This document shows positions 3,801 to 45,353 of a stretch of 64,000 nt of DNA, piece by piece. The stretch comes from Flavobacterium psychrotolerans (lineage in GTDB: Bacteria > Bacteroidota > Bacteroidia > Flavobacteriales > Flavobacteriaceae), in NCBI RefSeq assembly GCF_003097635.1, contig NZ_QCZI01000008.1:1-64000 (forward strand). Reading direction: 5' to 3'. Below the pieces are notes generated by a model that searched no databases, was not told where the DNA came from, and was given only the letters and a program-made list of their open reading frames with translations. The position numbers and the translations under genes are program-made. The first letter of the stretch is position 1; each line of letters opens with the position of its first letter.

Positions 3801-6800
3801 ATCTGTGCCTTCGGGTTGGAGTGGTACAAGTACTAATGATACTGGTTCTACGCATATACAAAGCTCCTCCAATTGTAGAGCTTTAATCAATGGAAATAAT
3901 TTAATTACAAGTGCAATAGACAACCCGATTTCCATTGATTTTTACGTAGATGCAAGTAGTGGTGGTAATGGCGGAACAGGAACTTTGGAATATAGGGTTG
4001 GTGCCGGAGCATGGACTTCTGTAGGAACTTTTGTGGCATCAACGGCTGGAGCCACGGTAACTTTCGCTTTAACGAGTTCGCCAAACTTATCCGCAACCGC
4101 AAATGTCAGTTTCAGGATTTCATCTGCGGCAAGTACCATATACATTGATGATTTAAATGCGTATTGTAATTCTGTTGCAGGGCCAACAATCACATTGAAT
4201 CCAACAACCTTAACCGGGTTTTCCTATATTTTTGGATCAGGGCCATCCGCCAATCAAACTTTTACGGCAAGCGGAAATAATCTGACGGCAGATATTTTAC
4301 TGACACCACCAACTGATTATGAAATTTCTACAGATTCAGGATCTGGTTTTGGTAGTACGATTACCTTGACACAATCAGGAGGGGTTGTTAATGCCACCAC
4401 TATTTACGTTCGATTAAAAGTAGGTTTGGCCGCAGCAAATTACAATACTGAAAATGTTGCAGCGACCAGTGCAGGAGCAACTACAAAGAATGAAACTTGT
4501 AGCGGAACCGTAAATACTTCAACTAACTCAATTACCTCAGACATTATAGCGGTTGCTTCCAGCGAATCGACAACGGTATCGTCTATGGAAAATGACGCAA
4601 CAATTACCACAACGGCAGACGGTGCACAGGTATGGCAATTTACAATAAGAGATGGCGGAACTGTTGTTGACAGCGATGCTCTGGCCACAATCGTAAATAG
4701 CATCACGTTAACACAAAATTCAGGAAATGCAATTAATGATTGGGCAGATGCCATAGAAGTAGTCGCATTGTTTAATGGGACAACAAAAATTGCGGATGGT
4801 GTTGTTACCTCTACCGGAATAACCTTTACTGGTGCGCCACTTATTTCAGTTCCGGACAACGGAAGTGTTACGCTAACCATACGATTGTCAATTCAAATCA
4901 ATCCAAACAATACCGGAGGTAATTTAGACGGGGACGATTTTGTATTCAGTATCGACCATGCCAATTTAACAGAATCTGCTGCGGGATCCCAATTCAAAAG
5001 TTCAGGGGTTGTTTCAAGTACCAACGGACAAGATGTTTTGACAGTAGTCGCAACTAATTTTGTATATACGCAACAGCCAACCAATACGGGTCAAAATGCC
5101 ACGATGACTTCGGTTAAAATTACGGGGACAGATGCTAACGGGAATAAGGATTTAGGTTATACTGGGGTTGTTTCCATAACCAGTACGGGTACAATGACCG
5201 GGTCACCACTTACGGCAACTGCAATTGCGGGAGTGGCAACATTTAGTAGTATTATACATTCTGTACAAGGTACTGGCTATACTTTATCTGCGTCAGGTAC
5301 GGGAATTACCACATCAATCAGTCCTGTGTTTGACATTACTGGTAACACAACGTTCCAACCTGGAGAATTGGCTATATTGGCTGTAAATACCTCCGCTGCC
5401 ACAAGTTCTTCTGAAGACGAAATTTCCTTTGTTTGTTTTGTGGATATTTTACCCGGAACTACATTTTATTTGACAGACAATGGTTACGAAAGACTTTATA
5501 CAGGATTATGGGGTAATGGCGAAGGTATTATATCACTTATGCGTACAACATCAACATTGCCAAAAGGAACCATTATTACGATTCATACCGTTAATGGAGG
5601 AGTTTATGCAGGAACAGATTTTACTATATCTACTTGTGGTTCTATTGATTCTAATTGGACAAAAGGGATTGTAGCTGGGGGTGTAGGAGGTGGTAATTTT
5701 GACTTAAACAGAGATGATCAAGTCTGGATTACCCAAGGGGGGACTTGGGGAAACGCGACAACTTTAGCTCATGATATGACTTATAATGGAAATGTATTGT
5801 ATGGATGGACGGATATTCCTTGGAAAACAGACATCAATTATGCCAGTACCAAGGGATCTACAATCGTTCCTAAAAGAGAATGTTATACCACTGACGTAGC
5901 AAACCCAATAACTACAGCTTCTCGAGTTAAATTTAATGACCCTGTGAATCCCGATTTTTCTACCCTTACTAACGGGAGAATCGACTGGATTGGGTTAATC
6001 AACAATCCGGCAAACTGGGATTATTATACTACAGATGCCAATTATGATGCTGGTGGCTACAATTATATAGGCTCCACAACGTGTCCTGCAATGACCATGG
6101 GGGCCAGTACATACGTTAACGGTCGATGGACGGGAAAAATAGACACAAACTGGTTTAACTGTAGTAATTGGGACACCTTAACGGTTCCGGATGAAACCGT
6201 AGATGTGACGGTTGTGGATACCTCATACGACAGGCAAGCTAATGTAAATTATGCGGCCGCCTATGCGGATTATTATGGAAATATTGCTCTAGCTAAAAAC
6301 TTGACAATAACGGGTGAGAAAGTGGAAATTGTCGCCAATACCAACAACAAACTGGAAGTTCACGGAAATTTATCAATTGGTTCCGCCGGGTCTTTAGATA
6401 TGGATGACAGTAATTCTGCCACGGCTGACGGACAATTGTACTTGTATGGAAACTGGACTAATAGCGTTGGGAATTCTGCCTTTCAAGAAGGAAATGGAAC
6501 CGTGCGTTTTTTAGGAAGTTCAGCACAAGTAATCAGTAATGTAACGCCAGAAGGAACGGAAACTTTTTATAATTTAGTTTTGGGAAATAATTTTGACACC
6601 AGCGTATCCAATGACATTATTGCTTCGAAAGACTTAACCATTTCAAGTGGAAAAACACTGACCATTGCCTCAAATGACTTTGCAGAAGTAGGTTATAATG
6701 TGACCAATAGCGGAACATTAAATATTGCAAATAATGGCTCTTTGATTCAAACAAATGATGCTGGAGTAGATACAGGAAACATCTCCATGCAACGTACAGC

Positions 6801-8235
6801 TACTATTAGAACATTAGATTATGTGTATTGGTCCTCACCTGTTTCTAATTTTTCTGTATCAAATGTGAGTCCTACTTCTTCATTAATCTACAAATGGGTT
6901 CCGACTGTAGCGAGATCTTATGCCAGTAATTTTGGCGGTTGGGCAGCGGCTGGGGGAGAAACTATGGTAATTGGAAAAGGATATATCATAAGAGGCCCAG
7001 GAACAGGAACTAATGCTGTAACAGCAGAGCCTTATTCAGCTACTTTTACAAACGTTCCTAATAATGGAGTTGTCACCGTAGGAATAGAAAGAAGCACATG
7101 GGATGGAGCCGATTACACCTATTCTAGTGGCGCTAATACCCTGACCGTTAAAAATGACGACGACAATTATAATTTATTAGGAAACCCCTACCCCTCAGCG
7201 ATTGATGTTCATTCTTTTTTAGCCACCAATACCAACCTTGCGGGATATGTTAAACTATGGTCTCATGGCACTGCCCTTTCAAATACAAATGGTCAGTCCT
7301 TTTACAATTCTTTTCCTTATACCTATACGGCAAGTGATTATGTAACCTACAATGAAACCGGTTTATCGGCTGGGCCTACAGATTATGCCATTCCGGCTGG
7401 TCAGGGATTTTTTGTAACGATGAACCACAGCTCGGCAGCCACCTCTGAAAATGTTACTTTCAACAATTCCATGAGGAACAAAACCTATAAAAATAATGCT
7501 TTTTATAGGCAAGCGAACCGCGGAAATATTGAGAGACACAGAATCTGGCTGGATATAGTAGACACCTCAGGACGTACCGTAAGAACAATGGTTGGGTATA
7601 TTCAAGATGCCACTTTGCACAAAGACAGATTGTTTGATGCAAATATCAAAGTGGACTCTAATTTAAATATCTACTCCTTAATCAATGATGAAGCACATAT
7701 TATTCAAGGAAGGCCTTTGCCTTTTGATATCAATGATAAAATTTCATTAGGAGTAAGCACTCCAGTCAAAATGATTAACGGCGCTCCTTCTCAAAACACC
7801 TACACAATTGCCATAGGGGTTACCGATGGTTTATTCAGAGATACGAGACAGAATATTTATTTGGAAGATAAACTGCTTAATATCATTCATGACTTAAGAC
7901 AAGCGCCTTATACTTTCACTACAGTGGGCGGAAGATTGGACGACCGTTTTGTATTGCGATATACTAATGGAGCCAGATTAGACGCTACTGATTTCAGTAA
8001 GTTAGACCGTAATGTGGTAGTGGCTTCAGCCGATAGACAAATAAAAATCAAATCCTATTTAGAAGATTTGAAAAATATAACGGTGTATGATGTTTTAGGC
8101 AGAGAAGTATTTAAGAAGAACAATATAAATGCCATGGAGTTTTATGTGAATGATATTATATTAAGTCAACAGGCTTTAATTATTAAGATTGTTTTAGCAA
8201 ATGGACAGACAGTAACCAGAAAAATAATATATTGA
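889..8235 (+). CDS. giant multidomain T9SS-secreted surface protein (2,448 aa)
   Basis: A signal peptide (MKIKLLLLTLALFMVSFCSFGQ) opens a modular beta-rich protein. A fibronectin-III-like domain lies at ~185-300, a choice-of-anchor-D-like domain at ~304-407, and a putative Ig (He_PIG-like) domain at ~517-597. Two unit types then alternate: B (~601-731, ~961-1094) and A (~732-841, ~846-957, ~1097-1207). A lamin-tail-like segment starts near 1493. The last ~500 residues (from ~1948) closely match the end of the second giant protein (33,400-41,415), finishing with a type A sorting domain and TRKIIY. By family knowledge this implies export by the type IX system and a cell-surface or secreted location. 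No catalytic motif was seen, so an adhesin or surface-layer role is inference. The gene is monocistronic between its own promoter and terminator. Confidence 0.85.
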   Translation: MKIKLLLLTLALFMVSFCSFGQTNSYLGLNGGFEGTATIDNTTTGGTAVANKWGKANTNATIAGETTTVRSGANSLKVTSSTSSTCRVFSPLMTISASTTAWQVQYYRRATSTTATIQNQTGSYRNGSETLNGSYTTVSATNTWEKVTYSPASTTSATTAAADVLVKMMTSAGDMYYDDFVLYESGSIDVTAANPATSAATANPSLSTLDVSWTAASGGVDGGGYIVVRGTADPTTAPNVNGIYAVGNTIAAGMTVVFQGTGTSFTDTGLSSGTTYFYRVYSYDKAYNYSAANTCSGTTSAAGSPSLAITGTTAHGSSCPTVAATPITYTITNSGSVTAAGVTVVSNDAQFVVSGLSSTTIAGSGGTATYVVTFTPSSSGAKTATITVASTTSGSNSPTSSLTGTGTTAVTATVTSSAASSILSTSATLNGNVTALGVCPATTSKGFVYSVTSTNANPLNGGTGVTTTSVAGVSTGAYVLALTGLASATNYTFKAYVFDGVTYTYGTALTFTTLGVPVVSSASPTGTSGTAFSYSIVATNTPTSYAVASGTLPTGLSLNTSTGAITGTPTASGSSSITVTATNGAGTSTPVTISFTIASGPCLSANFDSSTSVPSGWSGTSSNDTGSTHYQSASNCRGLGTGINLITASIDNPTSIDFYVDASSSQTGTLEYRIGAGAWTSIGTFAATSAGSTANFPLTSAPDLSGTTGVSFRISSPGNTIYIDDLNAYCNPTTITLTPTTLTGFTYALGSGPSANQTFTASGSGLTADILLTPPTDYEISTAAGSGFGSTITLTQSGGTVSATTIYVRLKTGLTVNSYNSETIAASSTGATTKNVTCSGTVTGTGPTITLTPTTLTGFSYLSGSGPSSNQTFTASGVNLTADILLTPPTDYEISTASGSGFGSTVTLTQSGGTVSVTTIYVRLKAGLAIGSYNSEVIAATSASATTQNVTCSGSVSSSGPCLSSSFDSSTSVPSGWSGTSTNDTGSTHIQSSSNCRALINGNNLITSAIDNPISIDFYVDASSGGNGGTGTLEYRVGAGAWTSVGTFVASTAGATVTFALTSSPNLSATANVSFRISSAASTIYIDDLNAYCNSVAGPTITLNPTTLTGFSYIFGSGPSANQTFTASGNNLTADILLTPPTDYEISTDSGSGFGSTITLTQSGGVVNATTIYVRLKVGLAAANYNTENVAATSAGATTKNETCSGTVNTSTNSITSDIIAVASSESTTVSSMENDATITTTADGAQVWQFTIRDGGTVVDSDALATIVNSITLTQNSGNAINDWADAIEVVALFNGTTKIADGVVTSTGITFTGAPLISVPDNGSVTLTIRLSIQINPNNTGGNLDGDDFVFSIDHANLTESAAGSQFKSSGVVSSTNGQDVLTVVATNFVYTQQPTNTGQNATMTSVKITGTDANGNKDLGYTGVVSITSTGTMTGSPLTATAIAGVATFSSIIHSVQGTGYTLSASGTGITTSISPVFDITGNTTFQPGELAILAVNTSAATSSSEDEISFVCFVDILPGTTFYLTDNGYERLYTGLWGNGEGIISLMRTTSTLPKGTIITIHTVNGGVYAGTDFTISTCGSIDSNWTKGIVAGGVGGGNFDLNRDDQVWITQGGTWGNATTLAHDMTYNGNVLYGWTDIPWKTDINYASTKGSTIVPKRECYTTDVANPITTASRVKFNDPVNPDFSTLTNGRIDWIGLINNPANWDYYTTDANYDAGGYNYIGSTTCPAMTMGASTYVNGRWTGKIDTNWFNCSNWDTLTVPDETVDVTVVDTSYDRQANVNYAAAYADYYGNIALAKNLTITGEKVEIVANTNNKLEVHGNLSIGSAGSLDMDDSNSATADGQLYLYGNWTNSVGNSAFQEGNGTVRFLGSSAQVISNVTPEGTETFYNLVLGNNFDTSVSNDIIASKDLTISSGKTLTIASNDFAEVGYNVTNSGTLNIANNGSLIQTNDAGVDTGNISMQRTATIRTLDYVYWSSPVSNFSVSNVSPTSSLIYKWVPTVARSYASNFGGWAAAGGETMVIGKGYIIRGPGTGTNAVTAEPYSATFTNVPNNGVVTVGIERSTWDGADYTYSSGANTLTVKNDDDNYNLLGNPYPSAIDVHSFLATNTNLAGYVKLWSHGTALSNTNGQSFYNSFPYTYTASDYVTYNETGLSAGPTDYAIPAGQGFFVTMNHSSAATSENVTFNNSMRNKTYKNNAFYRQANRGNIERHRIWLDIVDTSGRTVRTMVGYIQDATLHKDRLFDANIKVDSNLNIYSLINDEAHIIQGRPLPFDINDKISLGVSTPVKMINGAPSQNTYTIAIGVTDGLFRDTRQNIYLEDKLLNIIHDLRQAPYTFTTVGGRLDDRFVLRYTNGARLDATDFSKLDRNVVVASADRQIKIKSYLEDLKNITVYDVLGREVFKKNNINAMEFYVNDIILSQQALIIKIVLANGQTVTRKIIY
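2692..4515 (+). repeat. alternating intragenic domain repeats (B-A-A-B-A)
   Basis: Within the first giant gene, unit A (~330 bases, at ~3,085-3,415, 3,427-3,760, 4,183-4,510; hallmark LTADILLTPPTDYEIST) occurs three times. Unit B (~390 bases, at ~2,692-3,080 and 3,769-4,170; hallmark SSTSVPSGWSGTS) occurs twice. Copies are highly similar at protein level and visibly so in DNA, suggesting internal duplication of a B-A block. A diverged A unit also occurs in the second giant gene near 37,070-37,390. Confidence 0.8.
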
Positions 8236-27149: not shown

Positions 27150-27220
27150 GTTTAATAATATCAATCTCTCCAAATTGGCAGAAGAATTTGAAGCGAATGG
27201 CTTGACCCTATATATCCATC

Positions 27221-27302
27221 CTGTTCCCGCTGTACGCTACAATCCATGCCAAATTGCTTCGTGCCTCACAATGACGTGGGATTTCCACTTCCATCGGGGC
27301 TA
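27221..27302 (-). repeat. dispersed structured repeat, copy 1
   Basis: Read on the minus strand it begins AGCCCCGATGGAAGTGGAAA and ends GATTGTAGCGTACAGCGGGA, with TGAGGCACGAAGCAAT inside. The same ends and core occur at 43,968-44,077 on the plus strand. It lies between rplY and pth, just upstream of the pth promoter. From memory, similar elements are scattered through Flavobacterium genomes. Confidence 0.65.
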
Positions 27303-27313
27303 GAGAATAAATC

Positions 27314-27410: not shown

Positions 27411-27977
27411 ATGAAGAAATTTTTAATTGTAGGCTTAGGCAACATCGGAGCCGAATACGTGAATACCCGACACAATATTGGTTTTAAAATATTAGACCAT
27501 TTTGCCAAAAAAGAATCACTTTCTTTTGCTACCGTAAAACTGGGCGCTTTGGCAGAATACAAATTAAAAGGAAGAACTTTTTTACTCCTTAAACCCAATA
27601 CCTATGTGAATCTAAGTGGCAAAGCCGTTCAACATTGGATGGAAAAGGAAAACATTCCCCTAGAAAACATAATGGTAATTGCAGATGACCTAAACCTCTC
27701 CTTCGGAGCTATCCGAATCAAACCCAAAGGAAGTGATGGCGGACATAACGGACTAAAAAACATCAACCTTATTTTGAACACTCAAAACTATACCCGTTTC
27801 CGTTTTGGAATCAGTGACGAATTCAAAAAAGGGAAACAAATAGACTACGTGCTTGGCGAATGGGACGAAGCTGAAAAAACAAAGCTTCCGGAACGATTGG
27901 AACTCGCTACAGAAATTATCAAATCCTTTGGAACGGCTGGATTAGAAAACACAATGACCGCTTTTAATGGGAAATAA
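27411..27977 (+). CDS. pth: peptidyl-tRNA hydrolase
   Basis: A 188-residue Pth that recycles peptidyl-tRNAs dropped from ribosomes. I choose the ATG at 27,411 (MKKFLIVGLGNIG). Earlier in-frame starts (27,351 and 27,246) lie at or upstream of the expected transcription start, and 188 residues matches the family. Visible hallmarks are NTRHNIGF (catalytic His near residue 21), LKPNTYVNLSGKAV, and the ADDLNLSFG...KGSDGGHNGLK block. If the 27,351 ATG were used, the protein would carry a 20-residue extension (MINWLSKLFSSQK...), which I recall from some relatives. It is preceded by the dispersed repeat. Confidence 0.93.
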   Translation: MKKFLIVGLGNIGAEYVNTRHNIGFKILDHFAKKESLSFATVKLGALAEYKLKGRTFLLLKPNTYVNLSGKAVQHWMEKENIPLENIMVIADDLNLSFGAIRIKPKGSDGGHNGLKNINLILNTQNYTRFRFGISDEFKKGKQIDYVLGEWDEAEKTKLPERLELATEIIKSFGTAGLENTMTAFNGK

Positions 27978-33399: not shown

Positions 33400-36300
33400 T
33401 TAGTATATAATTTTTCTGGTTACCGTTTGTCCGTTGGCCAAAACAATCTTAACAATTAAAGCCTGTTGACTTAATATGATATCATTTACATAAAATTCGG
33501 TTGTGTTTACATTGTTCTTCTTAAACACTTCTCTGCCCAAAACATCATACACTGTTATATTTTTCAAATCCTCTAAATAGGACTTGATTTTTATTTGTCT
33601 ATCGGCTGAAGCCACTACCACATTACTGTCTAACTTACTAAAATCAGTAGCGTCTAATCTGGCTCCATTAGTATATCGCAATATAAAACGGTCGTCCAAT
33701 CTTCCGCCCACAGTAGTGAAAGTATAAGGCGCCTGTCTTAAGTCATGTATGATATTAAGCAGTTTATCTTCTAAATAAATATTTTGTCTCACATCCCTGA
33801 ACAACCCGTCCGTAAACGCTATGGCAATAGTATAAGTGTTTTGAGAAGGAGCACCGTTAATCACTTTGATTGGAGTGTTTATCCCCAAAGGGATCTTATC
33901 GTTCTTGTCAAAAGGTAAAGATCTTCCCTGAATAATATGCGCTTCACCGCTAATTAAGGAATACATATTTAAATTACCGTCTACTTTAATACTTGCATCA
34001 AACAATCTGTCTTTGTGCAAAGTCGCATCCTGAATGTAACCCACCATTGTTCTTACATTACGCCCTGAAGCATCTACTATATCCAACCAGATGCGGTGTC
34101 TCTCAATATTTCCGCGGTTGGCTTGTCTATAAAAAGCACTATTTTTATAGGTTTTATTCCTCATAGAATTTTTAAAGGTAACATTTTCAGTGGCTAATGC
34201 CGAAGTGTGGTTCATGGTTACAAAAAATCCCTGTCCTGCCGGAATAGCATAATCCGCAGGCCCTGCAGAGGAACCCCCTACATTTTCAGTCACATAATCA
34301 CTTGCGGTATAAGTATAAGCAAAAGAATTATAAAAGGACTGGCCGTTTGAAGCGGAAGGCAACGTGCCGTGAGACCATAATTTAACATATCCTGCAATAT
34401 TGGTATTAAACGTTAAAAAAGAATGAACATCAATAGCTGAAGGATAAGGATTACCCAACAAGTTATAATTATCATCGTCATTCTTAACGGTTAAGGTATT
34501 GGCACCACTAGTATAGGTGTAATCCGCACCATTCCAAGTACTTCTCTCAATTGCTTTGGTTATCACTCCGTTATTAGGAACGTTTGTAAAGATGGCGGAA
34601 TAATCCTCTGCCACTGTTGCATTTGTTGCCGTACCTGGACCTCTAATAATATATCCTTTACCGTTCACCATCGTTTCACCAGCGGCGGCAACCCAACCTC
34701 CAAAATTACTGGCGTAAGACCTCGCTATGGTAGGCATCCATTTGTAAATTAACCAAGAAGTAGGAACTACATCAGAAACATTAAAATCCTTAACCGGCGA
34801 AGACCAATACACATAATCTAATTTCCTAACTGTGGCAATACGCTCCATAGATACGTTACCCGTATTAACTCCCGCATCATTTATTTGAACCAGACTACCA
34901 TTGTCTTGTATGTTTAAAGTCCCGTTTACCGTTAAATCATTTTGAATGTTCACATAATGATCTCCTGTTATAGTCAACGTTTTTCCGGCATTGACAATTA
35001 CATTACATGCATCAAAACTTCCATTTGTGGTCGTATTATAATCGGAATCAATAGTTACCGTATTGCTTAATGATGGCGGTCCGCTTGGAGACCAAGATCC
35101 ACTCCAGGTCTTAGATCCTGAACTTCCGCTTGAACCTACAATTTTAACCGTCTGAGAGGCAATATAACAAGAAGCGGAACTTTCATTCACTTTAACATAA
35201 TATTGATAATCCACTTTCCCCGAAGTGGAAGAAATATCCAAGACCGCAGATGTAGCACCAGAATATACTCCGCCATTCGCAAGTGGCGTCCAAGCTGCAA
35301 CATCTGGTGCAACCTCATACCATTGGTAAGACAATGCAGTCCCTCCAGAAAAACCTTCAACAGCTACTAACCCACTAATGCTTACAGAAGAACAACTTTC
35401 TACTGCGGCGGGTTGTACAGAAATGGTAGGCGTTGTTCCTTTAGGAGCAAATATTCCATAATTAGCACACGATTCCTGACTGTTAGTTGTCCAATTAGCA
35501 GCGCTAAATGTTGACGAAGGTGTTAATTTAGTAGGGTCTCTTAAAATACTATACCCAACCTCATTTGGCGCAACTACCTTATCAATAACAACCCCTCCTT
35601 TACGAAGCTCAAATTTATCCAACTCATTAAATCCCGAGCCTAAAAATCCATTGGCTGTTGTACCACATTCGCTGTCTCCTGATCTCGCATCAATTAAATA
35701 GATTCCTCCTGCGGGTAAAATACCCGTCAAGGTATGTGTTGTTTCTGTAACAGAATCATCCGGGGTTTTAACAAAAGTATAATTACCTGCAGTCAAATCT
35801 ATTGCCGATGCGGTAGGATTGTAAATTTCAAACCCTCCAGTACTTCCAAAGTAATCATCTAATACCTCAGTAATAATTAATTCTGTCAGCGGAGTATATT
35901 CACAAGCACTATTAACGGTATCAATAATAACATAAGGAGTTGCCGTTTGACACGTACCATCATTAACAACTAAATTCCCGGTAGTGGATCCCGCAGCAAT
36001 CTCAACTATCATTTTTGTAGCGGTTCTTGAAATAACAGTGGCAGCCGTGCCATTAAAACTAGCTGAGGACGTGGCAGCAGATAAATCTCCTGCAGTGGCA
36101 TTGATGGTCACAAGAGTTCCCACCGGACCAGTTTCTGGAGTAATAGCCCCTAAAACCAAAGTACAATTGGTACCGGTCAATAATATGTCATCTAAACGTA
36201 TGGCTATTCCACCCGTTTTTACCCATCTAATCATAAGATTAGCAAGCCCGCAAGCTCCAGCAGGCAATGCGATATCTGACATAAGATACCAACCAGCGGC

Positions 36301-39300
36301 AACAGAGGAAGCAGGGGCTGTATAGGGCACATTAATCCAAGTGGCACCACCATCCGGTGAATAGTCTAAATTTAATGTTCCGAAACTAGATCCCACCCCG
36401 TTTGTTTTATAAACTCCAAAACTTAAGGCCAATGTTGTATAAGCAGAGGTGTCAATGCTTCCAATTGAAAATCCGTAGTTACCCGATGTAACGGTAAAAT
36501 TAACATTTGCACCACCAGAGGCATTGGTATAACCTGACGATGCACTTGTAGCTCTAATATCTGCGGCATTTGCAGCCCCTCCACTAGACATGGTCAAGGC
36601 ATCATAATCGAAGCCATTGGCTGTTTCGTGTGTTGAAATAGCAGTTGTTCCCCCCACAGTTCCTATAGTCTCAAAAAAGATAGGTCCTAAAATACAATCC
36701 CCCTGAATGTTGAATGTATAAGGATTTTCATCACTGTCATTGTTTGCGATAGAAATCGTAGCGGTACGAGAACCCAAAGCAGATGGATCAAACGTTATAC
36801 TAAAAGTAGTAGAACCACTACCCGCTATAGTCGCCGAAGGAATTGCCGTAACGGTAAAATCCGCAGCGTTAGCTCCACTTAAGGTTACATAAGGGGAAGC
36901 TCCCGTTAGAGAAAGACTGGCAGTCCCCGTGTTTTCTATAGTGAACGTACGAACTATCGTCCCTCCAGCAAGATTGGCACTACCAAAGGCAGTGAAATTA
37001 GTGGATACCGTAGCCGTATTCCCGTTTACAATAGATACCGCATTCCCTTTGATATTAATTTCGGGAGCAGAAACTGTTCCGCTACATGCCACATTTTGAG
37101 CGGTCACTCCTGTACTGGTTACCGCTATGTTTCCACTATAACTTCCTCCGGCAAGACCTGATTTCTGTCTCACATATATAGTGGTGGTTGCTACCGTCAT
37201 ACCTGATTTAGCTAATGTTAAAGTAGCACTATAAGGTCCTCCAACCACTGTGGCTATTTCGTAATTTGTTGGTGCGGCTAACAAAATGTCAGCTGACAAA
37301 GTGGTTCCGTTAACCGTAAAGGTTTGTGTTGCTGATGGACCAGCCCCAAAAACATAAGTAAAACCAGTTAAGGTAGTGGTAGATAGGTTTACCGTAGCCA
37401 CCGGAGCCAAAGTGCTATATCCTACAGAAACTGTTGACCATGCGGAGGTTCCTCCTGCATTTACAGTACGAACTCTATAATAATAAACGGTTACAGATGC
37501 TAAACCTGTTGCTGTTGCCGATAATGTAGCTGACGAAATTCCACTTTGTGTATAATCTATAGATCCAAATGCAGGATCATTATCTACTTGTATCTCATAG
37601 GTATAAGCCGCTGCTCCGCCACCAGTTGGAGCTGTCCAATTGGCAACTATAGACGCAGCTGTAGCCCCCGAACCTGAACCAATAGTAGGCGCATTGTGTA
37701 GCGTTGTAAAAGTAGCATCTGGTGAATACCCCGTTCCGCTAGAGTTAGTCGCATATCCTCTATAGGTATATACGGTATTAGGAGTAAAACCCGAACGGGC
37801 ATGAGAAAAAGCTGAAATTGCCGTTCCGCCTTCCGCAAGGATATTTCCTGTTGGAGCTGCGGCTGTTCCCCATACTGTTCCTCTAGCTATTATTGCCGAA
37901 CCACCTGTATTTGTAATGGTTGCCCCTAATGTAGCGCCCGTGGTTGTAATAGATGTAGCCGTTGGAGTGGTTAAAAGCGGGAATGTTGGTAATACACTGC
38001 CATATAAAGTAAAATCATCTAAACGAGTTGAACCTCCCGTAGAACCAGTCATTGTCATAACAACGGTTATCGTTCCGCTTAATCCGCTAATGGCATTGGA
38101 AACATTGGTCTGTCCGTAAGCAGCCGCTGACGGGAACGATCCTGATCCAACGGCCGTACCGTTAATTGTCATGGACCATGCAGTAGAACCTGTACCACTG
38201 TGGTTTCCCCAAAAATTAAAAGACGTTACCGAAAGTCCGTAATTTGCCGCTACATTAAAAGTCAAGGTATAGACAAGTGATCCTGACGAAGTATTGGATA
38301 AACTATTACCACTACTTCCAACTAAAGCTGTAAAAGCAATTGTATTATTAGTCCAAGATGAACTGGACAAGTTGGGATCAAGTGTTGTTACAGCCGTATA
38401 AGGTTTTGGAGTTGTTGTTGTTCCAAAATCGTTTAAATAAATTGGCGTTACCACAGCCACTGGAGTTGCTGCTGTACTTCCGGTTGGTGTCCCGTCTCCT
38501 ATCGCATTTACTGCAAGGATTTGTACATTGTAAGAAGTACCATCGGTCAATCCTGTAATTAAGATTGGGCTGGTGGTCTGCGTAGGCGAACAAGCCGTAA
38601 AGGTTGCTCCACCATCAGTAGAATATTTATAATTGGTTATGGCTGAACCTCCCGTTGCCCCAGCGGTAAAAGCTACCGATAATTGACCACTACTTGGAGT
38701 TATTCCCGTAATGGTTGGTGCCGATGGTGCAACAGCAGTTGGAGTCACTGAATTTGATGTGGTACTTGGCGCTCCAGTACCTGCAGCATTAGTAGCTGTA
38801 ACGGTAAAAGTATACCCCGTTCCATTGGTTAAACCCGAAACTATTATAGGACTTGTTGCTCCTGTACCTGTAAAACCACCCGGAGCCGAAGTCACCGTAT
38901 AAGAGGTAATAGCTGAGCCCCCATTAGAGGCCGGAGCAGTAAACGAAATTGTTGCTTGGGTGTTACCTGCGGTAGCAGTTACCGCTGTTGGTGCGCCTGG
39001 TACGGTTATGGTTGTAAATGTTTGTGTTGCACCATAAGTATAGGTTGTACCATCAAACACATAGGCTTTGAAAGTATAATTGGTTGCCGCGGTCAGACCG
39101 GTTAAAGCCGAAGTAAAGGCTCCGGTAGCCCCAACAGCTACTGATGTTGTGGTAACGCCTGTGCCTAAATTTATTGGATTGGCATTGGCACTTGTAAGTG
39201 AATACACAAAACCTTTAAATGTTGAAGCGGGACAAACTCCTAATGTGGTAACATTCCCGTTTAAGGTGGCGGTAGTCGCTAAAACGGAAGAAGCCGCAGA

Positions 39301-41415
39301 CGAGGTTACTGCTTGTGCAACCGCAGCAGGTGCTGTAATCCCTATGGTGAAGGTAGTCGCATTTGTATTAAAATCAATTAAGCGAATATAATACGTTGTA
39401 CCACTTATAAAGCTTGCTGTTTTTGTTTCAGAACCTGCAACCGATCCGTGAGCAATTACCGGAGCAGTTCCAGTTGTTGGACAAGTTGTAGTAAAAACAT
39501 CAAAGTCTAAATCTGGACCAGCTGTATAACTAGCTGTAATGGTATGATTTCCGGTACATGTAGGTATAAAAGAATACCATACATCATTCTTTGTCGGAGC
39601 GTATGCAAAAGTATTTCCCGCAGTTGAAGTCCCATTTACAAATGTCCCAGTAATTGCCGCAGCATCCAGAACCAATGTTGTTGCACCAGAACATAAGTCG
39701 TTAACTGGCGCCCCAAGAGGTGTTGCTGAATTGGATGCAGCACTTGGCGCTCCTGTTCCTGCAGCATTGGTAGCCGTAACAGTGAAAGTATATGCCGTTC
39801 CGTTAGTTAATCCCGTAACGATTATAGGACTAGATGCCCCTGTACCTGTAAAACCACCTGGCGATGATGTCACGGTATAAGAAGTAATTGCCGAACCTCC
39901 GTTAAAAGCCGGTGCGGTAAAAGTTACTGACGCCTGTGTACTTCCGCCTGTAGCCGTTCCTATTGTAGGTGCATTAGGCACGGTAAAAGGCGTAACAGAA
40001 TTGGATGCCGCACTTGCAACACTTGTTCCTATTCCATTAGTAGCCGTAACGGTAAAAGTATAAGCGGTTCCGTTGGTCAAGCCCGTAACGATTATGGTAC
40101 CGCTTCCCGCCTGATTTAAAGTTCCGGTAATTCCTCCAGGGGAAGAAGTTGCGGTATAAGTGGTAATTGCTGAACCTCCATTAGAGGCTGGTGCGGTAAA
40201 CGGAACAGAAGCTTGAGCATTTCCTGCTACTGCCGTTCCTATTGTTGGAGCTCCAGAGACTGTTGGCCCACTATTTGGTGTTACTGCATTTGACGCAACA
40301 CTTGCCGCCCCAGCTCCTGCGGCATTGGTGGCCGTAACAGTAAAAGTATAAGCAGTTCCGTTGGTTAAACCCGTAACGACTATAGGGCTTGTAGCCCCAG
40401 AACCTGTAAAACCACCCGGTGATGAAGTCACAGTATAAGAGGTAATTGCCGAACCCCCATTAAATGCCGGTGCGGTAAAAGCTACAGATGCCTGCCCGTT
40501 TCCTGCCGTGGCAGTAGCTGCCGTTGGCGCATTAGGAACCGTATAAGGAGTTGCCGAACCAGAGGCCGCGCTTGCGGCACTAGTCCCCACTCCATTAAGT
40601 GCCGTTACTGTAAAAGTATAAGCCGTTCCGTTGGTCAAGCCGTTTACGGTTATCGTGCCACTTCCTGCCTGAGATATTGTTCCGGTGATCCCACCAGGAG
40701 ATGACGTTGCGGTATAAGATGTAATTACTGAACCTCCATTAGATGCAGGAGCGGTAAAGGCAACCGTTGCCTGACCCGAAACTCCGGTGGCGGTGGCAGC
40801 CCCAATTGTTGGAGCTCCAGATACCGTTGGGCCGGCAGGTGTTGTTGTTACTGTCGCAGAGGTATTAGCTTCTACTCTACAAGTTGTTCCGGCAGATGTT
40901 AAACCAACTGGAATAATATAGACATTCAGCACCTGACTAGCCCCAACCGCTATTGCCGTACCGGGAGTGATTACATAAGTTGCAGCCGATGTTGTTGGCG
41001 TATAAGTCCCTATAAGAGTTTTTGCCCCTGCCCCAATACTATATTGTACAGAAACAGTAGGAGCTCCAGTTACGCTACTAACGCGAGAAACGATACTTAG
41101 ACTCGACAAAGTAAAAGTCACTGACGCATCACTTGTAATACTATAAGTGAACCAAGCTGAATTGGTTATATTATTTGCTAAAGTATTATTAAACCCGCTA
41201 CCATTAATAGAAGTTGACGTATTTGTACAAGTCACTCCAGATCCTCTCAATATTTGAGAAAATGTCAAGCCTGCTGGGACGGCTGAAATGGTTGATGCCG
41301 AGTTAGCAGGACATGAAGGAGCTGTCATCGCAGTATAACTAACCACAGTCTGCCCATAACTCCCTAAAGAAACAACAAACAATGCAAGTGATAAAAACAG
41401 TAATTTCAATTTCAT
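33400..41415 (-). CDS. giant multidomain T9SS-secreted surface protein (2,671 aa)
   Basis: A signal peptide (MKLKLLFLSLALFVVSLGSYGQ) leads a modular protein. Four near-repeat fibronectin-III domains lie at ~200-570 (hallmark LTNGTAYTFTVTA) and a PPC-like domain at ~572-698. More FN3-like domains follow, including one resembling 412-514 of the first giant protein. A unit related to that protein's A repeat comes next, then choice-of-anchor D (~1447-1572), TIG-like (~1755-1832), lamin-tail (~1835-1968) and Ig-like (~1990-2095) domains. Residues ~2167-2671 closely match the C-terminal ~500 residues of the first giant protein, ending in a T9SS type A sorting signal. No enzyme motif is seen; an adhesin or surface-fibre role is inference. 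It is transcribed alone from a clear promoter. Confidence 0.87.
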   Translation of the reverse strand: MKLKLLFLSLALFVVSLGSYGQTVVSYTAMTAPSCPANSASTISAVPAGLTFSQILRGSGVTCTNTSTSINGSGFNNTLANNITNSAWFTYSITSDASVTFTLSSLSIVSRVSSVTGAPTVSVQYSIGAGAKTLIGTYTPTTSAATYVITPGTAIAVGASQVLNVYIIPVGLTSAGTTCRVEANTSATVTTTPAGPTVSGAPTIGAATATGVSGQATVAFTAPASNGGSVITSYTATSSPGGITGTISQAGSGTITVNGLTNGTAYTFTVTALNGVGTSAASAASGSATPYTVPNAPTAATATAGNGQASVAFTAPAFNGGSAITSYTVTSSPGGFTGSGATSPIVVTGLTNGTAYTFTVTATNAAGAGAASVASNAVTPNSGPTVSGAPTIGTAVAGNAQASVPFTAPASNGGSAITTYTATSSPGGITGTLNQAGSGTIIVTGLTNGTAYTFTVTATNGIGTSVASAASNSVTPFTVPNAPTIGTATGGSTQASVTFTAPAFNGGSAITSYTVTSSPGGFTGTGASSPIIVTGLTNGTAYTFTVTATNAAGTGAPSAASNSATPLGAPVNDLCSGATTLVLDAAAITGTFVNGTSTAGNTFAYAPTKNDVWYSFIPTCTGNHTITASYTAGPDLDFDVFTTTCPTTGTAPVIAHGSVAGSETKTASFISGTTYYIRLIDFNTNATTFTIGITAPAAVAQAVTSSAASSVLATTATLNGNVTTLGVCPASTFKGFVYSLTSANANPINLGTGVTTTSVAVGATGAFTSALTGLTAATNYTFKAYVFDGTTYTYGATQTFTTITVPGAPTAVTATAGNTQATISFTAPASNGGSAITSYTVTSAPGGFTGTGATSPIIVSGLTNGTGYTFTVTATNAAGTGAPSTTSNSVTPTAVAPSAPTITGITPSSGQLSVAFTAGATGGSAITNYKYSTDGGATFTACSPTQTTSPILITGLTDGTSYNVQILAVNAIGDGTPTGSTAATPVAVVTPIYLNDFGTTTTPKPYTAVTTLDPNLSSSSWTNNTIAFTALVGSSGNSLSNTSSGSLVYTLTFNVAANYGLSVTSFNFWGNHSGTGSTAWSMTINGTAVGSGSFPSAAAYGQTNVSNAISGLSGTITVVMTMTGSTGGSTRLDDFTLYGSVLPTFPLLTTPTATSITTTGATLGATITNTGGSAIIARGTVWGTAAAPTGNILAEGGTAISAFSHARSGFTPNTVYTYRGYATNSSGTGYSPDATFTTLHNAPTIGSGSGATAASIVANWTAPTGGGAAAYTYEIQVDNDPAFGSIDYTQSGISSATLSATATGLASVTVYYYRVRTVNAGGTSAWSTVSVGYSTLAPVATVNLSTTTLTGFTYVFGAGPSATQTFTVNGTTLSADILLAAPTNYEIATVVGGPYSATLTLAKSGMTVATTTIYVRQKSGLAGGSYSGNIAVTSTGVTAQNVACSGTVSAPEINIKGNAVSIVNGNTATVSTNFTAFGSANLAGGTIVRTFTIENTGTASLSLTGASPYVTLSGANAADFTVTAIPSATIAGSGSTTFSITFDPSALGSRTATISIANNDSDENPYTFNIQGDCILGPIFFETIGTVGGTTAISTHETANGFDYDALTMSSGGAANAADIRATSASSGYTNASGGANVNFTVTSGNYGFSIGSIDTSAYTTLALSFGVYKTNGVGSSFGTLNLDYSPDGGATWINVPYTAPASSVAAGWYLMSDIALPAGACGLANLMIRWVKTGGIAIRLDDILLTGTNCTLVLGAITPETGPVGTLVTINATAGDLSAATSSASFNGTAATVISRTATKMIVEIAAGSTTGNLVVNDGTCQTATPYVIIDTVNSACEYTPLTELIITEVLDDYFGSTGGFEIYNPTASAIDLTAGNYTFVKTPDDSVTETTHTLTGILPAGGIYLIDARSGDSECGTTANGFLGSGFNELDKFELRKGGVVIDKVVAPNEVGYSILRDPTKLTPSSTFSAANWTTNSQESCANYGIFAPKGTTPTISVQPAAVESCSSVSISGLVAVEGFSGGTALSYQWYEVAPDVAAWTPLANGGVYSGATSAVLDISSTSGKVDYQYYVKVNESSASCYIASQTVKIVGSSGSSGSKTWSGSWSPSGPPSLSNTVTIDSDYNTTTNGSFDACNVIVNAGKTLTITGDHYVNIQNDLTVNGTLNIQDNGSLVQINDAGVNTGNVSMERIATVRKLDYVYWSSPVKDFNVSDVVPTSWLIYKWMPTIARSYASNFGGWVAAAGETMVNGKGYIIRGPGTATNATVAEDYSAIFTNVPNNGVITKAIERSTWNGADYTYTSGANTLTVKNDDDNYNLLGNPYPSAIDVHSFLTFNTNIAGYVKLWSHGTLPSASNGQSFYNSFAYTYTASDYVTENVGGSSAGPADYAIPAGQGFFVTMNHTSALATENVTFKNSMRNKTYKNSAFYRQANRGNIERHRIWLDIVDASGRNVRTMVGYIQDATLHKDRLFDASIKVDGNLNMYSLISGEAHIIQGRSLPFDKNDKIPLGINTPIKVINGAPSQNTYTIAIAFTDGLFRDVRQNIYLEDKLLNIIHDLRQAPYTFTTVGGRLDDRFILRYTNGARLDATDFSKLDSNVVVASADRQIKIKSYLEDLKNITVYDVLGREVFKKNNVNTTEFYVNDIILSQQALIVKIVLANGQTVTRKIIY
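38700..40830 (-). repeat. tandem fibronectin-III-coding repeats in the second giant gene
   Basis: At least five units of ~270-290 bases encode LTNGTxYTFTVTA-type domains (about 40,550-40,830, 40,270-40,545, 39,990-40,265, 39,715-39,985 and 38,710-38,995). Two subtypes alternate (SSPGGITGT and SSPGGFTGT), pointing to duplication of a two-domain block. The block between 39,000 and 39,710 interrupts the series. Confidence 0.8.
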
Positions 41416-42704: not shown

Positions 42705-42731
42705 TAAAACACACCAATCCTTTAATTGGTT
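42705..42731 (-). terminator. weak terminator of the ketoacyl synthase gene
   Basis: On the minus strand ACCAAT, short loop, ATTGGT, then GTGTTTTATT. The hairpin begins right at the stop codon and the T-run is imperfect. Confidence 0.4.
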
Positions 42732-43896
42732 ACAATGACAGTAAAACACTCACGGCATTTCCTCCAAAACCTACCGCATTCACCAATACTTTCTTGATGA
42801 CTTTTTTGGATTGTTGTACTGGCACAAAAGGCACTCCTATAAAATGTTGCCTTTGCATCATCATGATCGCCAATTCAATACTAAGCATTCCCGAAGCGCC
42901 AAAAGTATGTCCTATTTTCCATTTGTTGGTAGTAAGCAAAGGCAATTGAGAACCAAATACTTTTTGGATGGCTTTGTATTCCGTCAAATCACCGGCTTTT
43001 GTTCCGGGCGCATGCATGACAATGGCATCCACCTCATCAGCATTAGTATTTGCCAAGGCCATTTTCATGGATTTCTGGAAACATAGGGCTTCCGCCGAAA
43101 TGGAAATGTTGTGTTCTAAAATTTCCGTGGCATAGCCAATGCCTTCAATATAGGCCAATGCATTTGCTGATTTGCCAATTTCTAGACAACAAACCGCTGC
43201 CCCTTCGCCAAGAATCAGGGTGCTTTGCTTTTTTTCAAAATCTAAAGCGCGGGAAGGCCATACGTCAAGCTCCTCTTTAGACTGTGCATAAATCTTTAGC
43301 GCTTTCATTTGGGCAATAGTAAAATTGGTCAGTGGGGCTTCACTACCACCTACTAAAAATTTATCAGCCATGCCCGCACGAAGCCATGCCACGCCATTTA
43401 ACAACGCATGCAAAGCAGTAGAGCAGGTTATGGAATGTGAAATGTCGGGCCCTTGACTCTGCAAATCATGGGCAACCCAGGATGAAATATTCCCTAGCGT
43501 GGTGGTAGGTGACGCTAAGGTTTGCGCTTTTCCGGTGGCTAAAAATTCCTGATGGTGTTTTTCAAATAATTCGGTCGCGCCACGAGAAGAGCCCAAATTC
43601 ACGCCAAAGATGTCGTTTTTAGTCCAGCCTGATTGGGCAATGGCTTTACGGGAAGCAGCAATGGCAAACAATACCGATGGATCTAAGGATTTGTATTTGA
43701 TGTCGAATTGTCTTATGGATTCGATTTCTTCCTTCGAAGCTGCGTCTAAAACGGCAGCAAACGCTTTTTGATTGCCAAAATCTTTTTCAATAAAACAATG
43801 TTGGTTGTTGAGATACTTTTCCCAAACGGTTTCAGGGTTGTTCCCTAAGGGAGAAATGGAAGAAATGGCGGTAATGGAAATCGTTTTGGACACCAT
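42730..43896 (-). CDS. beta-ketoacyl synthase (FabF-like), linked to biotin genes
   Basis: A 388-residue thiolase-fold condensing enzyme. I choose ATG at 43,896 (MVSKTISITAISSISPLG); the frame's first ATG at 43,920 adds 8 residues outside the domain. The Cys-His-His triad is present: Cys158 (ITCSTALHA), His295 in HAPGTKAGD (a variant of the usual HGTxT box) and His330 (KIGHTFGASG). It is the third gene after bioD and bioA on the same strand, though a structured repeat separates it from bioA. Housekeeping FabF usually has the canonical HGT motif, so this may be a dedicated synthase for making the biotin pimelate chain or another acyl chain. That role is inference. Confidence 0.82.
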   Translation of the reverse strand: MVSKTISITAISSISPLGNNPETVWEKYLNNQHCFIEKDFGNQKAFAAVLDAASKEEIESIRQFDIKYKSLDPSVLFAIAASRKAIAQSGWTKNDIFGVNLGSSRGATELFEKHHQEFLATGKAQTLASPTTTLGNISSWVAHDLQSQGPDISHSITCSTALHALLNGVAWLRAGMADKFLVGGSEAPLTNFTIAQMKALKIYAQSKEELDVWPSRALDFEKKQSTLILGEGAAVCCLEIGKSANALAYIEGIGYATEILEHNISISAEALCFQKSMKMALANTNADEVDAIVMHAPGTKAGDLTEYKAIQKVFGSQLPLLTTNKWKIGHTFGASGMLSIELAIMMMQRQHFIGVPFVPVQQSKKVIKKVLVNAVGFGGNAVSVLLSL

Positions 43897-43967
43897 AATA
43901 TATTTTTTCATGGATAACACCTACCTTCATACGTGCTCCATATTGTCTTGTTATTCGATTGATTTTT

Positions 43968-44077
43968 AGCCCTGATAAAAGTGGAAATCCTGCCCTTTAG
44001 AGGAATAGGGCAATCTCCTTAAAAGATTGCTTCGTTCCTCGAAAGGACAGATTGTAACGAATAGCAGGAATAGCTCC
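43968..44077 (+). repeat. dispersed structured repeat, copy 2
   Basis: Begins AGCCCTGATAAAAGTGGAAA and ends AACGAATAGCAGGAATAGCT. It can fold with an outer stem TCCTGC/GCAGGA (43,988-43,993 with 44,064-44,069). This encloses hairpins GCCCT/AGGGC (43,992-44,011), CAATCT/AGATTG (44,011-44,029) and a small TCCT/AGGA one (~44,036-44,047). It fills the gap between bioA and the ketoacyl synthase. The same ends occur at 27,221-27,302. Confidence 0.7.
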
Positions 44078-44081
44078 AAAT

Positions 44082-45353
44082 TTAAGCAATTTCTATTGCT
44101 TTTTCTACAACTTGATAGACTTTTTGTAATTGTTTTTCGGTAATGATATAGGGCGGCAAAATGTAAACGATATTCCCAACGGGACGCAAAATAACGCCGT
44201 TTTCTATAAAAAAATCATAAAGCTTGTTGCGCAAAGTCCCGTAATAAGAAGCGTGGTCTTCGGTTTTGATTTCCAATGCAAAAATTACCCCGAGTACGCG
44301 TGTGGTGGTTACCTTGGGATGCAACTGGATTTTTTTCTGAAAATCCAAGTGGCTCCTATGTACTCTGGCGATATTTTCTTGCATTTCCTGGGTTTGCAAC
44401 AACTCCATACTTGCTAATGCCGCGGCACAACCCGTAGGATTTGCGGTAAAAGTATGCCCGTGGAACAAGGCTTTGTTGATGTCGTCGCTATAAAACCCAT
44501 CAAATAATTCCTGGGTAAATGTGGTAATCGCCATGGGGATTGTTCCGCCCGTTAATGCCTTAGACAAACACATCATGTCGGGCTGTTCTTTAATGTAATC
44601 ACAGGCGAATGTTTTTCCGGTTTTTCCAAAACCCGTCATGACCTCATCGGCAATGGTGAGCACGTTGTTTTCTTTGCAAATTTGGATGAGCTGATCCAAG
44701 GCTTCGGGCTCGTACATCACCATTCCTGCGGCACCTTGCACTAGGGGCTCGAAAATAAACCCCGCACAGTTATTGGTTTTTATCCGCTCACGAAGCGCAT
44801 CAAAACTAGCTTGCTCCTCCCCTTTTACCGGAACTGGAATTCGAACCACATCAATAAACATTCCTTGAAAGGCCTGGGTATAAAAGGAAATCCCGCTGGC
44901 TGCCATGGCTGCAAAAGTATCGCCATGAAAGGCATTTTCGAAGGCAATTATGGTGGTTCTCTTTTTCCCCAAATTATAAAAATATTGCAATGCCACTTTT
45001 ATTGCAACTTCAACTGCAGTGGAACCGTTATCAGAAAAAAAGATTTTCTTTTGATTGTCCGGAAGGATTTGCAACAATTTTTCGGCTACCAAAATCGCAG
45101 GTTCATGGGTGAATCCGCCAAATAAAACGTGCTCTAATGTGGTGAGTTGTTTATATATGGCATCGGCTATACAGCGGTTACTGTGCCCAAACGGATTGAC
45201 CCACCAGGAAGCAATGGCATCAATATATTCCTTGTTTTGGTCATCCCAAAGCAAGGCGCCTTCCCCTCTAGCTATGGCAACAGGAGGTGCCGCTGTTTTA
45301 TGTTGGGTATAAGGATGCCAAAGGCATTGGCTGTCTCTTTCTGTTAGGTTCAT
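44082..45353 (-). CDS. bioA: adenosylmethionine-8-amino-7-oxononanoate aminotransferase
   Basis: A 423-residue class III PLP aminotransferase that turns KAPA into DAPA in biotin synthesis. The substrate-site N-terminus (LWHPYTQHK) is the BioA signature. The PLP lysine is Lys265 (CLSKALTGG) and the cofactor-binding Asp236 lies in ADEVMTGFGKTG. It is 29 bases downstream of bioD on the same strand. No bioF, bioC or bioH gene is seen in the window, so the pathway is only partly clustered here. Confidence 0.96.
   Translation of the reverse strand: MNLTERDSQCLWHPYTQHKTAAPPVAIARGEGALLWDDQNKEYIDAIASWWVNPFGHSNRCIADAIYKQLTTLEHVLFGGFTHEPAILVAEKLLQILPDNQKKIFFSDNGSTAVEVAIKVALQYFYNLGKKRTTIIAFENAFHGDTFAAMAASGISFYTQAFQGMFIDVVRIPVPVKGEEQASFDALRERIKTNNCAGFIFEPLVQGAAGMVMYEPEALDQLIQICKENNVLTIADEVMTGFGKTGKTFACDYIKEQPDMMCLSKALTGGTIPMAITTFTQELFDGFYSDDINKALFHGHTFTANPTGCAAALASMELLQTQEMQENIARVHRSHLDFQKKIQLHPKVTTTRVLGVIFALEIKTEDHASYYGTLRNKLYDFFIENGVILRPVGNIVYILPPYIITEKQLQKVYQVVEKAIEIA

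Follow-up and report, generated by a model that had tools for sequence, protein, structure and literature searches.

The element under study lies in the spacer between two genes that are read in the same direction on the reverse strand of the window (the whole stretch of 64,000 nucleotides analysed here), namely a class-III aminotransferase gene, bioA (44082..45353, -; PF00202, E 4.7e-101), and the next gene after it, which encodes a beta-ketoacyl synthase (42730..43920, -; PF00109/PF02801). It spans 43964..44077 on the forward strand, with the bioA stop codon 4 bases away, and is a copy of the known family Flavo-1 (RF01705), ordinary as a single copy, scoring 57.5 bits in cmscan against a gathering cut-off of 42. 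The Rfam match itself covers 43964-44075 (+), the short-form 3' end GCTCC being reached at 44077, and the Rfam strand of this copy is antisense to both bioA and the ketoacyl synthase gene. Judging from the sequence and from family covariation, the 5' arm TAGCCCtGATa...ATCC occupies 43967..43990 (+), with variable pair positions at t 43973 and a 43977 (+). It is followed by a variable interior hairpin (43991..44049, +; delimited by sequence and fold) and by the 3' arm GATTGTAACGAATAGCAGGA with its tail ATAGCTCC, which pairs with the 5' arm (44050..44077, +; sequence and Rfam match). A second copy (27219..27305, -; 51.5 bits) lies in the spacer between rplY, the upstream gene for ribosomal protein L25 (26489..27097, +; PF01386), and pth, the downstream gene for peptidyl-tRNA hydrolase (27411..27977, +; PF01195, E 5.9e-60). 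Both copies exceed the gathering cut-off over the full RF01705 model, positions 1-76. The window also holds two very long open reading frames, at 889-8235 and 33400-41415 (2448 and 2671 codons).

An earlier note on this DNA had placed the element correctly (TAGCCC starts at 43967 and the GCTCC end falls at 44077), and the shorter copy it reported near 27.2 kb, on the opposite strand and with the same ends, is the second RF01705 match. Its claim of strong folding was likewise borne out for the bioA-side element, which folds better than all 200 shuffles on both strands (z -4.55 on + and -3.88 on -); the 27.2 kb copy alone is not better than its shuffles on one strand (z 0.75) and weakly so on the other (-1.39). 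The cloverleaf envisaged there, an outer stem with two or three hairpins, gave way to a single long imperfect hairpin as the minimum-energy fold. A different middle had also been ascribed to the 27.2 kb copy; the interior does vary, but both copies share a nested palindromic unit, TTGCGAGGMACGAAGCAATC, at 44025..44044 (-; one mismatch by pattern search, 0 of 100 shuffles) and at 27252..27271 (-; two mismatches), and at up to three mismatches it is found at just those two places in the window. Units like TTGCGAGGMACGAAGCAATC are present in further copies of the same genome as well (L031, L035, L053, L056 and L059), and palindromic repeats seem to insert into one another.

Anatomy and distribution of Flavo-1

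Flavo-1 is a dispersed intergenic repeat in which covarying arms surround a variable hairpin. The 5' arm reads TAGCCCnGATn..AGYGG..ATCC and the 3' arm GAT..AGCG..nAGCnGGA, whereas the stem of the enclosed hairpin is almost free in sequence, with 167 distinct interiors among 195 copies and two common loops, TCTTT (29 copies) and GGGTT (26). The arms themselves fall into two main subtypes among 92 copies, GGAAATCC/GATTG (54) and GGCATCC/GATA (34), and a third, AAGGGAAAATCC/GATTGGAATGA, is found with small differences in own-genome copies L027, L039, L046 and L056. Arm positions that lie in internal loops stay conserved. Some copies have short 3' ends (GGAAATAGCTCC), while a long form of about 165 bases, judged from the profile, carries an A-rich 5' extension and a 3' extension ending in GCTCC, both of which are left out of the Rfam core model. 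The 3' extension was considered as a separate repeat and rejected as such: in the stretches scanned it gave 18 matches, of which 17 scored with a core upstream, and the 18th proved to be a diverged copy (G167:239082), so that no solo 3' extension was seen.

Several observations concern what is added to this core. A module of about 45 bases, starting with TACTTCAC and ending with AGTTCAGTGAACTTCGT or a close relative of it, is present in L161, L183 (G167), L226, L235 and L277, with the insertion of the module falling at one position within the Flavo-1 3' arm (GAT^TG) in several species, and other short palindromes (such as TTCGCCAGTTCGCTATCGCTCG) sit at nearby points of the 3' arm in L231, L276 and L280. 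Own-genome copies L025, L043, L049, L051, L053, L057 and L060 carry the same core inside another outer stem (GTGAGGGAT...AGCCCGACC... or similar); these look like a sister family that is partly captured by the Rfam model.

The earlier note had staked its reading beforehand on further copies in the genome and on compensatory changes in the stems; the latter are abundant, and the window's own genome holds 61 RF01705 matches at E up to 0.001, 49 of them over the cut-off. A search of the genus, run with stricter filters and at most 64 candidates scored per genome, found Flavo-1 in 58 of 61 genomes, own included, leaving three with no match. Zero copies were counted in G018, G020 and G058. Across the phylum, Flavo-1 was detected in 57 of 395 genomes, among them every one of the 24 Flavobacterium genomes listed and a scattering outside the genus, and all 14 control genomes were negative. 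Copy number is high and patchy, ranging from 0 to 128, the upper figure being that of the complete genome G167. Among 80 of at least 120 named loci, records with the 5' arm came from Flavobacterium, Chryseobacterium, Halpernia, Epilithonimonas, Soonwooa and Frigoriflavimonas, together with one Sphingobacterium bin and four bins named Flavobacteriaceae or Bacteroidota only. In another complete genome (G045), 29 copies lie on the + strand and 10 on the - strand among the 39 matches listed of 86, an imbalance that spans the whole chromosome and that neither replication half accounts for.

Covariation, the folding strand and transcription

The conserved stem with compensatory changes that is expected of a Flavo-1 member was found. 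In a count of 195 copies, which took in 43 of the 61 own copies because the regular expression misses some, pairing is kept at the two most variable outer positions in 189 and 184 copies, whereas shuffling gave 120 and 105 on average and at most 136 and 125; a further covariation count took in 44 of the 61. To avoid the mixing of paralogs, covariation was also assessed on the orthologous copies of the rplY-pth spacer, 24 of 25 of which were aligned (L323 was dropped for the disruption of its 5' arm, although it scores above the Rfam cut-off). RNAalifold, which predicts structure under RNA rules, returned 20 pairs for this alignment, 16 of them with two-sided changes, and 97.0% of cells were paired versus 76.7% after shuffling and 42.6-53.2% when the structure was slid. 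The corresponding covariation score was 0.647, versus 0.252 for shuffled alignments (0 of 500) and at most 0.171 for slid ones. Copies are related by descent, and these covariation counts, like the mismatch counts that follow, represent non-independent events.

Mismatches bear on the strand concerned. Interior stems scored by Watson-Crick rules hold 30 GT as against 7 AC in 1,896 pairs from 195 copies (12:3, 4:0 and 14:4 in the three sets), and the orthologs hold 28 GU versus 4 CA cells. The excess of GT over AC suggests that the strand modelled by Rfam is the relevant one in the single-stranded state, and we infer that a single-strand fold of this strand has been under selection. Tolerance of GU fits RNA and single-stranded DNA equally.

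One explanation of these data is that Flavo-1 functions as RNA, either as a genuine small RNA or as a structured segment within transcripts, and that its copies form a multi-copy RNA gene family whose covariation reflects RNA function. It would account directly for the strong, strand-specific covariation with GU pairs, it agrees with the Rfam classification (Gene; sRNA), and several 5' transcribed regions of F. psychrophilum coincide with Flavo-1 according to the portion of PMC9723704 available. The same source, however, describes Flavo-1 matches as lying indistinctly sense and antisense to transcribed regions, with many outside them. Orientation to genes is mixed in our data as well. In codirectional spacers, with genes called by simple ORF picking, the Rfam strand is antisense rather than sense at a ratio of 27:11 in the own genome (p 0.014), of 20:14 in G167 and of 18:17 in the named genomes (80 of at least 120 named loci for this count, 120 in later analyses). 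The own-genome bias was thus rejected as a trait of the family, being absent in the other two sets, and the consistent orientation to a regulated gene that would mark a cis-regulatory RNA was not seen.

Promoter scans relied on a consensus, which non-consensus promoters escape. A full consensus promoter within 220 bases and pointing toward the element was present for the Rfam strand in 1 of 187 copies and for its complement in 6, as against 9 and 12 pointing away; the -7 motif by itself is about as frequent in either direction (44 and 44 toward, 47 and 57 away), a point in favour of an RNA gene. At the 25 rplY-pth loci the -7 motif points toward pth in 24, of which 17 have a full promoter, and toward Flavo-1 in one; a terminator of the rplY type was recognised at 10 of the 25. 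Mixed orientation, the rarity of full promoters and the F. psychrophilum transcript data together favour DNA or incidental RNA over a dedicated RNA. A dedicated small RNA is doubtful, and we regard the RNA-gene explanation as a whole as possible but on balance unlikely.

A further reading is that Flavo-1 is a DNA element and not an RNA gene. It is somewhat improbable, in our judgement, that the hairpin of one strand is selected as DNA while the core is exchanged like a cassette and the ends are left in place. The same rather low credence attaches to its two further parts, that selection has preserved the hairpin over the evolution of much of the genus, and that the sites are fixed and lie outside or at the edge of transcripts. 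A role of lagging-strand DNA predicts a bias in replication strand, and the observed 150:128 (p 0.21) counts against it. This ratio was obtained over five genomes, with the origin at dnaA and the terminus at the opposite point, four of the five being represented by the matches listed (150 of 290), and replication-strand bias was rejected on this ground. A free two-breakpoint scan in G167 gave a weak bias (24 of 300 shuffles for all copies, 3 of 300 for the top 60).

Shared sites, replaced cores and the search for a mobiliser

Many copies keep the same place and orientation across species while the hairpin changes. Comparison of the proteins flanking the 61 own copies with those flanking 165 copies (162 distinct) from the fetched loci of other genomes gave 15 distinct pairs, involving 12 own loci, that match on both sides in the same orientation, and 23 more that match on one side; 20 own loci have at least one such same-orientation match, and orientation at matched sites is the same in 38 distinct pairs and inverted in one. 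At rplY-pth, the Rfam search found a copy over the cut-off in 25 of the 30 genomes nearest by pth (own included), in every case within the spacer and antisense to pth. The members of these 30 that lack it are dispersed over the gene tree, a pattern consistent with ancestral presence followed by losses. Among 20 more distant pth relatives, ribosomal protein L25 was encoded on the fetched stretch in 15, and one of these 15 has a copy (L354), so that the site is of long standing in only a part of the genus; in L344 and L345 the copy lies at another place on the fetched stretch and on the opposite strand, and no match to the ribosomal protein is present there. Flavo-1 copies do not hop freely.

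What lies between the arms can nevertheless be replaced, and at some sites the core is wholly different between close relatives while neighbouring sequence is kept. G167 and G093 are collinear here, with 84-93% identity in the pieces that align. Of 19 G167 copies, nine have a counterpart at the corresponding position in G093, one a remnant and three none (3 of 13 assessed sites), while six had no spanning match; a tenth shared pair was identified from the G093 side. By eye, the interiors of these ten pairs are essentially the same in four, partly changed in two and clearly different in four. At 118609 one genome has a C-G pair where the other has A-T, at 586326 the arm subtype has changed as well with the ends unchanged, and at 469831 a 5' pair base has changed and its partner has not, a one-sided change that would be expected at the edge of an exchanged tract. 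The rplY-pth spacer presents a similar picture. Six of the closest pairs have core identities of 0.91-0.95, compared with 0.92-0.94 for the genes. L330, at a gene identity of 0.93, has a core of 0.74-0.76, and the core of L335 is 0.54-0.64 identical to its three closest relatives, with genes at 0.90 and the 3' extension at 0.70-0.80 (0.47 to 0.90 across its clade). The L331 core is 0.55 identical to its nearest relatives and 0.88 to one more distant, which could be explained by transfer between species. From such comparisons we infer that cores are exchanged, whether through gene conversion or through renewed insertion at the site in question.

The earlier note had suggested a small mobile or REP-like element, and the part of this that stands is a dispersed, REP-like repeat with conserved ends; present mobility is doubtful. 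An active non-autonomous element (MITE or REP), moved in trans by a Y1/REP transposase or another enzyme, would explain the high and patchy copy number, the three G167 sites that are empty in G093, and an indel of about 157 bases between these genomes that spans a long-form copy, its ends being unclear and its nature either insertion or deletion. REP-associated tyrosine transposases are also present in the genome, and a weak own copy (34.7 bits, below the cut-off) lies about 105 bases downstream of one of them, a single case. Sites and orientation common to different species argue against active movement, and the search for a partner does likewise. PF01797 (Y1 transposase) matches were obtained in 14 of 18 genomes searched, and NF047646 (REP_Tyr_transpos) matches in 46 of 61, with 22 over the cut-off; eight Flavo-1-rich genomes with 36-64 matches each (G004, G011, G030, G034, G035, G043, G050 and G055), three of them under 90% complete, have no NF047646 match, and a RAYT/Y1 transposase was therefore rejected as a required partner. 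Flavo-1 was over the cut-off on 3 of 12 transposase loci scanned, about 1 kb or more from the gene, and no transposase gene flanked by Flavo-1 copies, as would typify a REP system, was seen there. The transposase genes that were viewed are flanked by palindromes of their own, of several kinds (L105, L109-L113, L116 and L121; for example GCGCGGATTTGCAATCCGTGCC), and at L122:4844-5241, in a genome with no Flavo-1 matches (G018), the gene for the transposase is disrupted next to a match to a group II intron. Of the 202 5' arms present in the fetched loci, none had a far partner that might enclose a gene as an autonomous copy would, the exact 5' arm pattern gave no match in viral contigs, and a plasmid search with 1.6 kb of the bioA region gave none either. 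The genomes and loci compared yielded no mobiliser, no target duplication and no defined insertion site, and active transposition seems decidedly improbable.

It is very unlikely that Flavo-1 copies are neutral old repeats whose palindromes are kept perfect by template switching during replication, with no selection on the fold. Such a process would explain why interior stems vary freely yet stay complementary, but a strand-symmetric process is not expected to yield the excess of GT over AC (30:7), and it also sits poorly with the conserved internal-loop positions of the arms and with ortholog cores that, in six of the closest rplY-pth pairs, are as similar as coding genes.

For the bioA copy, finally, a local role can be weighed. 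The earlier note proposed an RNA element separating bioA from the gene downstream, and as a general role this fails, since the two genes are adjacent in 30 of 30 loci and Flavo-1 is present in 3 of the 30, with no copy elsewhere on any of these loci. F. psychrophilum has a copy (L241) between the same two gene types, bioA and ketoacyl synthase. In spacers that lack Flavo-1 (L075-L103) other repeats are often found (CCACAGATT..GGATT units, AACTTTGCGACCTTTGCGG), differing by species. A terminator, attenuator or stabiliser acting in cis on the bioA operon is the least credible of the explanations, for all that the element lies directly after the bioA stop codon and that its mRNA-sense strand folds well, given that 27 of 30 such loci do without it and that the rplY-pth copy lies upstream of the predicted pth promoter.

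A conserved repeat and its counterparts elsewhere

The interpretation we tentatively favour, at not quite even confidence, is that Flavo-1 is a repeat of the REP/ERIC/BOX kind, which spread in the past, is now inherited by descent, has its Rfam-strand fold selected and its cores exchanged, and is present beside bioA as a passenger. Under this interpretation, a putative mobiliser would have dispersed Flavo-1 in the past and copies would persist at present by descent. Selection would act on the fold that the Rfam strand takes up when single, and the molecule concerned would more probably be DNA, or a transcript that occasionally reads through, than a dedicated sRNA. Cores would be swapped among copies, either through gene conversion or through a fresh insertion into the same site. 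The bioA copy would then be a locus-specific passenger outside the function of the operon.

Several consequences would follow. If Flavo-1 is indeed a DNA repeat that is conserved, pipelines for annotation are miscalling dozens of small RNAs per genome in Bacteroidota, and the hunt for its function would best be directed at a protein that binds DNA or acts in recombination. One defined place for testing the DNA-repeat reading is the rplY-pth locus, with its 24 aligned orthologous copies. The replacement of cores in place, with structure kept, likewise provides a natural test bed for the rewriting of short repeats in bacteria.

Of the known systems, Flavo-1 (RF01705) itself agrees with the window copies in sequence, structure and host range. 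It was named in 2010 as a candidate structured RNA (Rfam type Gene; sRNA; Weinberg et al. 2010, PMC2864571) and has no assigned function, none being given in the available portions of PMC2864571, PMC9723704 and PMC9029176, nor do these portions describe shared sites or core replacement. A search of the literature on dispersed or palindromic repeats in Flavobacterium or the Bacteroidetes, in which few subscription journals were covered, gave no description of Flavo-1. What is new is the reading of the family, namely its shared sites, its strand-specific fold, the exchange of cores in place and the weak evidence for transcription of its own. REP elements are, like Flavo-1, small palindromic repeats with tens to hundreds of copies between genes; unlike Flavo-1, they co-occur with a transposase, whereas the transposases viewed here are flanked by other palindromes. 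ERIC and other small repeats of enterobacteria are imperfect palindromes of about 100-170 bp that lie between genes. By this description ERIC resembles Flavo-1 as an intergenic imperfect palindrome, although it comes from a different phylum. As far as the available part of PMC3049150 describes it, the BOX repeat of the pneumococcus combines conserved end modules with a variable middle, made up of a variable number of tandem boxB units, is dispersed, is structured if transcribed, and has ends similar to ISSpn2, its spread lying in the past and present insertion being slow (PMC3049150). BOX differs from Flavo-1 in its host and in having a noted partner where none was found for Flavo-1, and the two are likened by description. 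With conserved ends and a middle that varies at one site, Flavo-1 shows the defining arrangement of a BOX-like repeat, a likeness in working that implies no claim of common origin.
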